This document shows, piece by piece, positions 9,258-13,751 of a stretch of 64,000 bases of DNA. Below the pieces are notes generated by a model. The model did not search any database, had not been told where the DNA came from, and worked only from the letters and a program-made list of their open reading frames with translations. A program made the position numbers and the translations under genes. The stretch is from Stutzerimonas nosocomialis (GTDB lineage: Bacteria; Pseudomonadota; Gammaproteobacteria; Pseudomonadales; Pseudomonadaceae), in NCBI RefSeq assembly GCF_005876855.1, contig NZ_QLAE01000005.1:124001-188000 (forward strand), in the 5' to 3' direction. The stretch's first letter is position 1; each line of letters begins with the position of its first letter.

Positions 9258-10187
9258 TCAGGGCGTCTCCATCCATTTCGGCTTCGGATAGCGCCGGTCG
9301 GCCTTGCCCGCCTTGAGGATCGCGCTCGGCACGTCGTGACCGACCAGCTCCGGCAGCCGTGCGGAGGCTTCGAGCAGGCGGTCCAGGTCGACCCCGGTCT
9401 CGAGGCCCATGCGCTGGAACATGTGTACCAGGTCCTCGGTGCAGATGTTGCCGCTGGCGCCCGGGGCGTAGGGACAACCGCCGAGCCCTCCGAGGGATGC
9501 GTCGAAGCGGTCGATCCCCGCGTTGAGCGCCGCCAGTGCGTTGGTCAGGCCCATGCCGCGGGTGTTGTGGAAGTGCGCGGTGAAGACGACCTGCGGCCAG
9601 CGCTGCGACACCTCGCGGCACAGGCGCTCCACCTGGCCGGGGTCGGCCATGCCGGTGGTGTCGCACAGGGTCACGCCGCGCACGCCGATCGCCAGCAGTC
9701 GCTCGACCAGCTCCAGCACCCGCGCCTCGGGCACTTCGCCCTCGAACGGACAGCCGAAGGTGGTGGACAGCGAGGCGTTGACGAACACGTCGGTGCCCGA
9801 GGTGACTTCGATGATCGCCTTGAACTGCTCCAGCGACTGCTCCGGCGTCATCCTCAGGTTGGCCAGGCCGTGGGTGTCGCTGGCCGACATCACCAGGTTG
9901 ATCTCGTCCACCTCGCAGGCCAGCGCGCGCTCGCAGCCCTTCACGTTGGGCACCAGTACGGTGTACTCGACGCCCTCCACCCGGCGGATGCCGCGCATCA
10001 CCTCTTCGGCGTCGCGCAGGTTGGGGATCGCCTTGGGCGAGGTGAACGAAGTGACTTCGATCTTCGCCAGTCCGGTCAGCGAAAGCTGGTCGATCAGCGC
10101 GATCTTGTCTTCGGTGGGCACGAAGGCCGATTCGATCTGGAAACCGTCGCGGGTGGCGACGTCCTGGATGTAGAGGCGTTTGCTCAT
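9258..10187 (-). CDS. hydroxymethylglutaryl-CoA lyase-like enzyme
   Basis: The 309-residue protein is an HMGL-like TIM barrel: IQDVATRDGFQIE near the start, KIEVTSFTSPKAIPNL, NASLSTTFGCPFEG, LCDTTGMADPGQV, FTAHFHNTRG with metal-binding His, and the signature loop GLGGCPYAPGASGN with the catalytic Cys. It should cleave HMG-CoA or a close analogue to acetyl-CoA plus a keto acid. The first motif reads RDGFQIE where classical enzymes have RDGLQNE, so the substrate may differ. The gene follows a CoA-transferase on the same strand across a repeat-bearing 153-base gap. The ATG at 10187 was chosen because the family N-terminus begins there; AGGAC lies just upstream. This is not the liu-cluster enzyme by context. 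Confidence 0.87.
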   Translation of the reverse strand: MSKRLYIQDVATRDGFQIESAFVPTEDKIALIDQLSLTGLAKIEVTSFTSPKAIPNLRDAEEVMRGIRRVEGVEYTVLVPNVKGCERALACEVDEINLVMSASDTHGLANLRMTPEQSLEQFKAIIEVTSGTDVFVNASLSTTFGCPFEGEVPEARVLELVERLLAIGVRGVTLCDTTGMADPGQVERLCREVSQRWPQVVFTAHFHNTRGMGLTNALAALNAGIDRFDASLGGLGGCPYAPGASGNICTEDLVHMFQRMGLETGVDLDRLLEASARLPELVGHDVPSAILKAGKADRRYPKPKWMETP

Positions 10188-10215
10188 GGTGAAGTCCTGT
10201 CGGTGATGCCCGGTT

Positions 10216-10300
10216 CGTAGGGTGGATGGCGCTCCACCCATCCACCGTGCCGGGAATGTCACGGTGGATGAAAAAGGCGTCATCCACCCAACGCGGTACG
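10216..10300. repeat. dispersed palindromic repeat, GTAGGGTGGATG type
   Basis: CGTAGGGTGGATGG at 10216-10229 and the inverted CATCCACCCAACGCGG ending at 10296 flank internal copies of the same GTGGATG/CATCCAC word. I know this repeat type as common between genes of P. stutzeri-like genomes. It fills most of the gap between the CoA-transferase and lyase genes and should fold as a hairpin in their shared transcript. Confidence 0.6.
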
Positions 10301-10340
10301 TTGTCGCCTGAAGCCTGTGGCTTGCAGCTTGGCGCGTCTA

Positions 10341-11640: not shown

Positions 11641-11728
11641 GAAGGCTTCGCGATCGGCGAAGGCAAGGCTGACATGACCGTACCGCAGGCCTTAGGCTTG
11701 TCGCCCGTCCATGCAGGAGGCCCATGAC

Positions 11729-12625
11729 ATGCGCCGCATCGATTTCGTGACCCTCCGGCTGTTCGTCGCCATCGCCGACGAGCGCAACCTGACCCGCGCC
11801 GCCGAACGGGAGCACCTGGCGCTGGCCGCGGTGAGCAAGCGCATCAGCGACCTGGAAGGGCAGCTGGGCATCGCGCTGCTCTACCGCCAGTCCAAGGGTG
11901 TCGAGCTGACGCCCGCCGGCCATGCCTTGCTGCATCACGCGCGCCACATCCTCGACAACCTGCAGCAGATGAGCGCCGATCTCAGCGAATTCAGCGAGGG
12001 CGTAAAGGGCCACGTACGCATCCATGCCAACACCTCGGCGGTGATCGAGTTCCTGCCCGAGGACCTGAGCGCGTTCAGCCAGCGCCATCCCGAAGTGAAG
12101 ATCGACCTGGAGGAGCGGGTCAGCAGCGAGACCCTGCATGCGGTGCGCGAAGGGCTCACCGATATCGGCATCTTCGCCGGGCATATGCCGGCCGAGGGGT
12201 TGCAGGTCTATCCCTACCGGCACGACCAGCTGGTGCTGGTGACGCCGCGCACCCATCCGCTGGCGGGGCGCGAACGCATCAGCCTGGGCGAGGCGGCGGG
12301 GTACGACTTCATCGGCCTGCAGCAGGACGCCTCCCTGCATACCCTGCTTCAGCAGACCGCGGCCCAGCTCGGCACACCGCTGCGCCTGAGGATTCAGGTG
12401 CGCAGCTTCGAAGCGATCTGCCGGATGATCCACACCGGCATGGGCATCGGCGTGCTGCCCGAGCAGGTGGTGCGCAACTACCTGCCGGTGCTGGACGTCT
12501 CGACGATACCGCTCAGCGACGCCTGGGCGCGACGTGAACTGAAGATCGGCGTGCGCAACCTCGACGGCCTTTCCGTCACGGCGCGGCAGATGCTCGAGCA
12601 CCTGATCGGCGACCCGCCGGGCTGA
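11729..12625 (+). CDS. LysR family transcriptional regulator
   Basis: The 298-residue protein begins with the LysR helix-turn-helix: DFVTLRLFVAIADERNLTRA, AAVSKRISDLEGQLGIALLY, then GVELTPAGHALLHHAR. A substrate-binding domain follows from about residue 92 (VRIHANTSAVIEFLPEDL). The length is normal. The start at 11729 has AGGAGG 8 bases upstream; the ATG at 11711 overlaps that site and is less likely. It diverges from the CoA-transferase/HMG-lyase pair and precedes a dctP gene, so it probably senses the acid that these genes take up and degrade. Its effector is unknown. Confidence 0.9.
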   Translation: MRRIDFVTLRLFVAIADERNLTRAAEREHLALAAVSKRISDLEGQLGIALLYRQSKGVELTPAGHALLHHARHILDNLQQMSADLSEFSEGVKGHVRIHANTSAVIEFLPEDLSAFSQRHPEVKIDLEERVSSETLHAVREGLTDIGIFAGHMPAEGLQVYPYRHDQLVLVTPRTHPLAGRERISLGEAAGYDFIGLQQDASLHTLLQQTAAQLGTPLRLRIQVRSFEAICRMIHTGMGIGVLPEQVVRNYLPVLDVSTIPLSDAWARRELKIGVRNLDGLSVTARQMLEHLIGDPPG

Positions 12626-12749
12626 CGGTCTTGCCGGCAAGCCTTCGCGGATGCCGAAGGCTCGCTTGCTCAAATGTGAATTTTGGTCGGCCACCGGCCG
12701 GCGTAGAGTCGACCCCGCTACCGCTCAACAACGATAAATAGGAGCTCCC

Positions 12750-13751
12750 ATGGCGCGTTTGACCCTGCGCGGCGCCGTCCGCGTGCTTGCCGCATCCGCC
12801 CTGTTCGCTGCGTTCAGCGTCCAGGCCGACCCGATTCTCATCAAGTTCTCCCACATCACCGCGGACAACACGCCCAAGGGCCAGGGCGCGCTGATGTTCA
12901 AGAAGCTGGTCGAAGAGCGACTGGCCGGACAGGTCCAGGTTCAGGTCTATTCGAACTCCTCGCTGTTCGGCGACGGCAAGGAAATGGAGGCGCTGCTGCT
13001 CAACGACGTGCAGATGCTCGCACCGGCGCCGTCCAAGCTCGAGCAGTACACCAAGCAGTTGCAGCTGTTCGACCTGATGTTCCTGTTCGACGACATGGCC
13101 GCGGCCCAGCGCTTCCAGCAGTCCGAAAAAGGCCGCGCGATGCTCGCCTCGATGGAGGACAAGGGCATCACCGGGCTCGCCTACTGGCTCAACGGCATGC
13201 GCCAGTTCACCGCCAACAAGGCGCTGCGCGAGCCGGCCGATGCCCGCGGGCAGAAATTCCGCGTGCAGCCTTCCGACCTTCAGGCCGCGCAGTATTCCGC
13301 CCTGCGCGCGGTGCCGCGCAAGATGTCGTTCGCCGAGATCTACCAGGGGCTGCAGACCGGCGTGGTCAATGCCCAGGACAACCCCTGGTCCAACATCTAC
13401 AGCCAGAAGTACTACGAAGTTCAGAAGTACATGACCGAGTCCAACCATGGCATCGGCAACTATGTGCTGATCACCAACACGAAGTTCTGGCACAGCCTGC
13501 CGGACGAAGTGCGCGGCGAGCTGGAGAAGATCGTCGACGAGGTCACCGTCGAAGTGAACCGCCAGGCGGCGGCCCTCAACGAGGAGGCCAAGCAGGCCAT
13601 TCTCGCCACCGGCAAGACCGAGCTGATCACCCTCACGGCGGAGCAGCGCAGCGCATGGCGCGACGCGGTGCGCCCGGCCTGGAAGAGCTTCGAAAAGGAT
13701 ATCGGCACGGACCTGATCGAGGCCGCCCAGGCCGCCAACACCGCGCCCTGA
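12750..13751 (+). CDS. TRAP transporter periplasmic solute-binding protein, DctP family (second copy)
   Basis: The 333-residue protein has a signal peptide ending near FSVQA and the same landmarks as the protein at 4539: [57 protein letters not shown] and VLITNTKFW. Most aligned positions agree by eye, so these are paralogues. Several differences fall in the ligand region, for example [10 protein letters not shown] against [10 protein letters not shown]. Again no dctQM genes are adjacent. GGAGCTCCC precedes the ATG, with an AACAACGA run upstream. It lies 124 bases after the LysR gene on the same strand. It probably feeds the adjacent CoA-transferase/lyase pathway through a membrane unit encoded elsewhere. 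Confidence 0.92.

Follow-up and report, generated by a model that had tools for sequence, protein, structure and literature searches.

The closest described counterparts of the locus reported here are the Pseudomonas itaconate cluster PA0878-0886 and a pair of Chloroflexus enzymes. According to excerpts of two reports, the genes of the itaconate cluster follow the order of PA0878-0884 (PMC9875883, PMC12290011), and its lactonase PA0880 opens the fungal compound 2-hydroxyparaconate to give itatartarate; the latter is described as a dead end for the strains tested, in which it accumulates and in part becomes 2,4-dihydroxybutyrate and other compounds (PMC9875883). Also on record are an (R)-citramalyl-coenzyme A (CoA) lyase (Enzyme Commission number, EC, 4.1.3.46) and a CoA-transferase (EC 2.8.3.20), the latter named for both (R)-malate and (R)-citramalate (PMC8307300). 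Here, a four-gene module was analysed in a 64,000-nucleotide stretch of DNA from Stutzerimonas nosocomialis (the window), which is positions 124001-188000 of contig C5 (NZ_QLAE01000005.1) in a draft genome of 4.76 Mb and 86 contigs. The module encodes a lyase of the 3-hydroxy-3-methylglutaryl-CoA lyase (HMGL) family, a family III CoA-transferase, a divergent LysR-type regulator and DctP, the solute-binding protein of a tripartite ATP-independent periplasmic (TRAP) transporter. Hereafter, L-numbers denote loci from other genomes or from the window genome, G-numbers denote genomes (G000 being the window genome), and C-numbers denote contigs of G000.

The module resembles PA0878-0886 in comprising a CoA-transferase, a C-C lyase, a TRAP binding protein and a LysR, the last two being paralogues of their counterparts. 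However, the lyase of PA0878-0886 is of the CitE type (PF03328) and is described as (S)-specific, whereas that of the module is of the HMGL type. The module and the Chloroflexus system, compared by reaction and not by sequence, share the logic of a CoA-transferase plus a lyase, but the module adjoins a LysR gene, dicarboxylate transporters and an itaconate cluster. The Chloroflexus (R)-citramalyl-CoA lyase is presumably also a member of the HMGL family. On balance, we consider it probable that the module is a route for a 2-hydroxy-2-branched succinate of the hand that the itaconate cluster cannot use, most likely (R)-citramalate. In the predicted scheme, DctP would bind the diacid in the periplasm for delivery to membrane subunits DctQM that are encoded at another site, the CoA-transferase would form (R)-citramalyl-CoA from succinyl-CoA and (R)-citramalate, and the lyase would split this ester into acetyl-CoA and pyruvate, with LysR controlling the divergent promoter; substrate, stereochemistry, CoA donor, partner DctQM and reaction are all parts of the prediction. 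Such a route would mirror the (S)-specific route of the adjoining itaconate cluster. The reactions are known, the setting is new, and the branch is predicted to be a new one.

The four-gene module and its conservation

Gene content, conservation, pocket residues, partner genes and paralogy were read directly from the sequences. The gene of the proposed (R)-citramalyl-CoA (possibly itatartaryl-CoA) lyase lies at 9258-10187 on the minus strand; its start was set at 10187, as the longer called open reading frame (ORF) begins too early. Profile scans gave this lyase 343.6 bits with NCBIfam PRK05692 (cut-off 246) and 160.4 bits with Pfam PF00682. The proposed succinyl-CoA:(R)-citramalate CoA-transferase (minus strand, 10341-11543 or 10341-11519, with the start at 11543 or 11519) scored 418.7 bits with PF02515. 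Its top NCBIfam match was succinate--glutarate CoA-transferase NF052585, at 272 bits far under the cut-off of 750, and it is 34% identical to the itaconate CoA-transferase Ict of the adjoining itaconate cluster. The divergent LysR gene (PF03466/PF00126) occupies 11711-12625 on the plus strand, with a start at 11711 or 11729, and is followed on the same strand by dctP at 12750-13751 (TIGR00787, 240 bits, cut-off 175; PF03480), an orphan with no DctQM genes beside it. The results showed that the four genes are present as the sequence-only reading had described them, including the RDGFQIE motif of the lyase.

The neighbourhood was compared in 80 loci from named genomes other than that of the window, 26 of which (L037-L062) are designated window-type. 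The named and unnamed locus collections overlap (L056 and L230 have the same position and identity), so that the loci are not all of different species. The pairing of an HMGL-type lyase with a family III CoA-transferase seen in the window recurred in 78 of the 80 loci, the CoA-transferase gene lying upstream in the same orientation as the lyase gene with a gap of less than 400 bp, except in L055 (546 bp) and L059 (three genes between). A divergent LysR gene was found in 69/80 loci and, in addition to pair and LysR, a module-type dctP adjoining the LysR gene in 21/80. The four-gene arrangement is thus beyond chance, and the earlier proposal that uptake, CoA activation, retro-aldol cleavage and LysR form one module, for which a synteny search had been suggested, was supported, and the genes co-occur widely. 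The carrier was found to vary: dctQM follow dctP to give a complete dctPQM in Pseudomonas loci L209, L211 and L223, the two scanned loci from Halomonadaceae (L063 and L088) have other TRAP systems, and the carrier is DctA in the fluorescens/putida clade, MatC-type in L059 and of the major facilitator superfamily in L197. As the CoA-transferase/lyase pair is constant while the carrier varies, the pair is the core of the module. The module is spread over Gamma- and Betaproteobacteria; five plasmid records matched, none of them covering 80% of the query. Intact lyase orthologues within the genus are 84-94% identical, the closest among named genomes being that of Stutzerimonas azotifigens (94%).

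A role of the lyase in leucine breakdown was considered and rejected. The LiuE candidate of the same genome is a separate gene on contig C22, after a biotin-carboxylase gene, and is 38% identical to the module lyase. A lyase tree was built from 121 loci, of which 13 without a lyase were dropped, plus LiuE, giving 109 rows, 105 of them different; the window lyase is represented in it by L037 (94% identical), whose branch lies apart from LiuE. The module lyase shares with LiuE/MvaB the family and the general motifs, but differs in its partners and locus as well as in identity, which supports the sequence-only reading on this point. Its RDG, HxH and GLGGCP-type motifs, which we take to be catalytic, are kept. 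Clade-specific residues (I/M/S/N after RDGFQ/RDGLQ, and F or M in GCP[FM]) were noticed as well but left out of the argument, since locating them relative to the substrate requires a structure. Where an HMGL-type lyase gene adjoins an itaconate cluster, annotation as an enzyme of leucine breakdown should be avoided.

Binding pocket, stereochemistry and regulator

The itaconate-binding residues of the solved TRAP binding protein IctP are known: S91, Q171 and V234 are the closest neighbours of the ligand's substituent, and Val234, replacing Leu, leaves space for the methylene group (excerpts of PMC12599236). Both DctP proteins of the window could be aligned gap-free with the solved chain of IctP, whose numbering is used here. 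The DctP of the itaconate cluster equals IctP at 11 of the 12 listed binding positions, the exception being V234I. The module DctP retains K41, K94, R169, Q171, F192, N209, N213 and Y236 but carries Ile34, Thr35, Ala91 and Gly234 (S91A and V234G). The clamp residues K41, K94, R169, N209, N213 and Y236 were present in 30/30 aligned module DctPs when called ORFs of at least 290 aa were used, and likewise at all readable positions when the alignment was repeated without that length filter. Gly234 was found in 33/33 readable module DctPs (window plus 32 loci) and Ala91 in 32/32 (window plus 31 loci), whereas the itaconate DctPs of the same loci have Ser91 (25/25) and, at position 234, Ile with a single exception (24 Ile, one Val, the latter in L241). 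Left uncounted in these tallies were L045 (an 86-residue piece with position 91 at its ragged end) and a 64-residue itaconate piece of L210; L038 is split in two pieces and the itaconate copy of L209 is partial. Leu234 occurs in the C4-type DctP of the window genome and in two other orphan DctPs, so that Gly joins Leu and Val/Ile as a third state at this pocket position in a TRAP binding-protein family of solved structure. Thus every carboxylate-clamp residue of IctPQM's binding protein is present in the module DctP, a member of the same family, which differs in Gly234/Ala91 versus Val234/Ser91 and in lacking adjoining membrane subunits in the window.

With the clamp kept and the residues next to C2 changed, a branched acid with a C4 backbone, and not a glutarate, is indicated; the ligand of the module DctP is probably a succinate-length diacid whose C2 is bulkier than that of itaconate. 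Citramalate and itatartarate agree with such a pocket, which argues against the longer acid 3-hydroxy-3-methylglutarate (HMG), which the sequence-only reading had named as substrate, to be cleaved to acetyl-CoA and acetoacetate. The HMGL family membership and motifs of the lyase would suit HMG, and among PDB chains the CoA-transferase matched succinate--hydroxymethylglutarate CoA-transferase at 182.6 bits, behind three better chains. Moreover, the two lyase activities can coexist, Rv2498c cleaving both citramalyl-CoA and HMG-CoA in the account available (PMC6689899). However, the clamp residues are those for succinate-length acids while the backbone of HMG is a glutarate, the leucine lyase is a separate gene, and the cluster context, the paralogues of the regulator and the partner genes all concern C5 branched succinates, making HMG the least probable of the substrates weighed here, and a highly improbable one. 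The HMG half of the earlier idea was accordingly given little weight, and its better half, that the lyase handles a related acid, with citramalyl-CoA among the esters considered, was retained.

Residues 34 and 35 vary among module DctPs. The window and the majority of loci have I34/T35, five DctPs whose loci carry an rdo homologue adjoining dctP (L057, L058, L209, L210 and L211) have V34/A35, and V34/V35 is found in the L207 DctP near an F-type lyase (see below). It is possible that these two positions are a specificity switch; the five V34/A35 DctPs form one clade. The window genome has four DctP genes of this family (C5:128626, C5:136846, C21:62073 and C49:21912) with no DctQM in the stretches examined, and the other three proteins are 52-67% identical to the module DctP. 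The four orphans may share a DctQM encoded on contig C2.

In the excerpts available, Ict of C. necator acts on (S)-citramalate and not on (R)-citramalate (PMC12290011), and PA0878-0886 in P. putida gave no growth on (R)-citramalate (PMC9875883), implying that a separate (R)-citramalate route is needed. A further report matches (S)-citramalyl-CoA with (R)-HMG-CoA and describes the HMG-CoA lyases of the TIM-barrel type as specific for (S)-HMG (excerpt of PMC6689899). By this correspondence, (R)-citramalyl-CoA would suit the hand of the HMGL family, and the opposite hand that of the CitE type.

A ranking of the module LysR against the whole genome placed the itaconate-cluster LysR first (46% identical), followed by a LysR on contig C28 (43%) and then by the next protein at 29%, the score falling from 245 to 86 bits after the C28 LysR. 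The C28 regulator gene adjoins genes for LeuC, LeuD and a MatC-type carrier. This MatC-LeuD-LeuC-LysR locus (L242:2490-6973, equal to G000:C28:43489-47972) is a candidate citraconate or maleate hydratase locus; its LeuC is one of three LeuC paralogues in the window genome, 56-66% identical to the LeuC of L059. LeuCD-type hydratases convert citraconate to (R)-citramalate. LeuCD-like genes were found beside the CoA-transferase/lyase pair in 4/80 loci (L059, L092, L094 and L108) and, outside the 80, in L227 and, 4-6 kb away, in L222. In L059, where lyase identity to the window is 83%, they lie inside the operon together with a MatC-type carrier gene, and the window genome carries a MatC-LeuD-LeuC set like that of L059. 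An aconitase-like gene follows the lyase gene in 6/80 loci, all from Halomonadaceae. The LeuCD and MatC-type partners, together with the naming of EC 2.8.3.20 for (R)-malate (PMC8307300), would also suit the use of maleate or (R)-malate, in which a LeuCD-like hydratase would make (R)-malate and the pair would activate and split it to acetyl-CoA and glyoxylate. However, an unbranched substrate would not require the emptied C2 pocket (S91A, V234G), and the module adjoins an itaconate cluster; we regard this use as very unlikely.

The palindrome CTTCG-N7-CGAAG at 11646-11662 (no strand), between the CoA-transferase and LysR genes, is a possible LysR operator. Its CTTCG and CGAA were kept in 18/18 aligned rows (one from the window, the other 17 from among the 26 window-type loci), and the exact form was present in 15/26 window-type loci; as it occurs seven times in the 64-kb window, it is weak evidence alone. 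Comparison of the two intergenic gaps revealed no operator common to the module and itaconate LysRs: the ich/LysR gap (6 rows) conserves different, GAACGC-containing stretches, whereas the CoA-transferase/LysR gap conserves CTTCG-N7-CGAA.

Taken together, the itaconate cluster 3.7 kb away, the nearest LysR paralogues at itaconate and leuCD-matC loci, the DctP pocket, the LeuCD partners, the specificity of Ict, the stereochemistry of the HMGL family, the known EC reactions and the separate LiuE make (R)-citramalate the most likely substrate of the module.

Itatartarate as a possible substrate and the Rdo homologues

The same enzyme pair could also take (S)-itatartarate, giving acetyl-CoA and hydroxypyruvate. 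Exchange of CH3 for CH2OH swaps ranks three and four, so that (R)-citramalate and (S)-itatartarate have the same spatial arrangement (a parity check with ranks assigned by us). The fungal lactone is named (S)-2-hydroxyparaconate in the excerpts of PMC9875883; opening it would spare the stereocentre and, by our ranking, leave (S)-itatartarate. By this argument, which is not a measurement, an enzyme pair for (R)-citramalate has the right hand for itatartarate as well. It is conceivable, if rather unlikely, that the module is chiefly an itatartarate pathway, in which itatartarate is imported or made by Rdo, the 2-hydroxyparaconate lactonase, and is then activated and split, the hydroxypyruvate being reduced to glycerate. 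The reported formation of itatartarate by PA0880 as a dead end (PMC9875883) would supply the substrate of such a pathway.

The genomic association of Rdo with the lyase bears on this alternative. An Rdo homologue was present in 22/80 loci, within 70 bp of the lyase gene in 13 of these. A D-2-hydroxyacid dehydrogenase gene together with a DctA gene was found in 12/80 loci, all of one clade and 11 of them also with Rdo; in the tree of 105 lyases this clade (support 100/99) has 17 Rdo-linked rows out of 21. The Rdo label required 6 changes on the tree versus 22.0 in shuffles (0/500 as low), which shows clustering only. Rdo and lyase genes were also surveyed in 398 genomes of the window's family, with lyase classes defined as bands of identity to the L098 lyase (window-type hits 62-67%, D-type 52-58%); the window-type band includes G154/L227, which lies outside the window clade on the tree. 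Rdo lies within 60 bp of the lyase in 4/4 F-type hits and within 25 kb in 31/76 window-type hits, and in L209-L211 it is placed between dctP and dctQM of the module's transporter (DctQ/DctM scanned in L209 and L211). The several different placements of Rdo argue for a functional tie, and a DctP with Ala91/Gly234 also occurs near the F-type lyase of L207. For the sister clade, whose loci carry genes of the lactonase and of a hydroxyacid dehydrogenase, itatartarate would be the likelier substrate, the L098 dehydrogenase being a putative hydroxypyruvate reductase by its family. For the window, however, Rdo is part of the itaconate cluster, so that its nearness may be secondary; 45/76 window-type hits lack an Rdo gene on the same contig at a distance of 25 kb or less, nothing in the window genome is more than 43% identical to the L098 dehydrogenase, and the window DctP has I34/T35 versus V34/A35 in the five DctPs from loci with Rdo next to dctP. 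(R)-citramalate is therefore still preferred for the window module.

Several observations weigh against this preferred substrate or the genomic links used with it. The lactonase homologue near the window indicates itatartarate as much as citramalate, 76/80 loci have no LeuCD genes by the pair, and the LeuCD-like genes could act on maleate to give (R)-malate. The dctP gene of the window module lacks adjoining DctQM genes, no itaconate gene was seen in the examined DNA of 10/26 window-type loci (of these, L038 and L049 have less than 500 bp beyond the lyase, and L059 less than 3 kb), and promiscuity like that of Rv2498c would leave room for HMG-CoA activity of the module lyase. Among D-type lyases, an Rdo gene at 25 kb or less was seen in only 2/65. 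The tie between Rdo and lyase weakens beyond the genus of the window: 13 genomes have both, 25 the lyase only, 42 Rdo only and 262 neither (Fisher p 0.0036, the genomes not being independent). Among 30 Rdo loci (L166-L195), 11 have module or itaconate genes in a short stretch, three more (L171, L172 and L176) have them by other comparisons, and 16 do not. The eight solved relatives of the window Rdo include STM3117, a biphenyl-diol-dioxygenase-related protein and glyoxalase domain-containing protein 5, implying that the Rdo family is wider than 2-hydroxyparaconate lactonases. Finally, the L098 dehydrogenase scored under every NCBIfam cut-off.

A broader idea, which we hold tentatively and as falling short of probable, is that this lyase family provides the missing bacterial itatartarate route, in which lactonase, CoA-transferase, HMGL-type lyase and hydroxypyruvate reductase would yield acetyl-CoA and glycerate; together with the itaconate cluster, it would disarm and eat the fungal mixture of itaconate, 2-hydroxyparaconate and itatartarate. 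The module would then predict the missing second half after the itatartarate 'dead end' of PA0880 as described in the excerpts of PMC9875883. Itatartarate is a fungal product, and the papers searched, seen as titles and abstract openings, describe no full route for its breakdown: in the literature on itatartarate and hydroxyparaconate none concerned bacterial itatartarate breakdown past formation, and in that on citraconate and citramalate growth in Pseudomonas none concerned an HMGL-type route. Named genes for the breakdown of (R)-citramalate, citraconate and itatartarate would be useful for the upcycling of branched diacids.

Three congeneric genomes (G014, G024 and G042) hold only remnants of the lyase gene and all still have Rdo. 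In L196, a CoA-transferase of the module group precedes Rdo, with no lyase in the examined stretch.

The adjoining itaconate cluster and flanking genes

The itaconate cluster ich-mcd-rdo-mmgE-ict-ccl-dctP, with a divergent LysR gene, lies 3.7 kb from the module, at 341-5528 of the window and further left, outside the span of the sequence-only reading, as does the complete dctPQM seen in relatives. The cluster starts in L133 and runs LysR, Ich, Mcd, Rdo, MmgE, Ict, Ccl, DctP, which is the gene order of PA0878-0884; we take the divergent LysR of the Pseudomonas cluster to be PA0877. The same order from ich to dctP is seen in L241, which is complete and has in addition two genes of DctQ and DctM size. 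Ict or Ccl was found in the examined DNA of 17/80 loci, 16 of them window-type.

Within the window, all genes of this cluster lie on the plus strand. A glyoxalase-fold protein of 127 aa (341-724; PF00903) holds the position of PA0880 (RdoPA, 2-hydroxyparaconate lactonase), as judged from the order mcd-rdo-mmgE shared with PA0878-0886, and is 75% identical to its homologue in L241. It is followed by genes assigned by cluster order to an MmgE/PrpD protein in the position of the (S)-(R)-methylsuccinate isomerase (743-2095; PF03972/PF19305), to Ict (2386-3591; PF02515, 338 bits) and to the CitE-type (S)-citramalyl-CoA lyase Ccl (3652-4479; PF03328), and then by the gene of an IctP-like DctP with no DctQM beside it (4539-5528; PF03480). 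Identity is 67% between the two DctP proteins of the window and 46% between the two LysRs, whereas BLAST gave no match at E 1e-5 between the HMGL-type lyase of the module and the CitE-type lyase.

The cluster and the module are separated by a nitroreductase gene and a subtilase-family gene. The latter encodes a large protein (PF00082; 6313-8979, minus strand), for which a search of the 80 loci gave no match at thresholds of E 1e-10 and 40% of its length. To either side of the two clusters lies one of a pair of paralogous membrane proteins that share 40% identity (13896-15221 of the window, minus strand, a DUF2254 protein, and L133:7644-8975, minus strand). Beyond dctP lies an acetyl-CoA synthetase-type gene (15456-17411, plus strand), which is also present in the examined DNA of 17/26 window-type loci.

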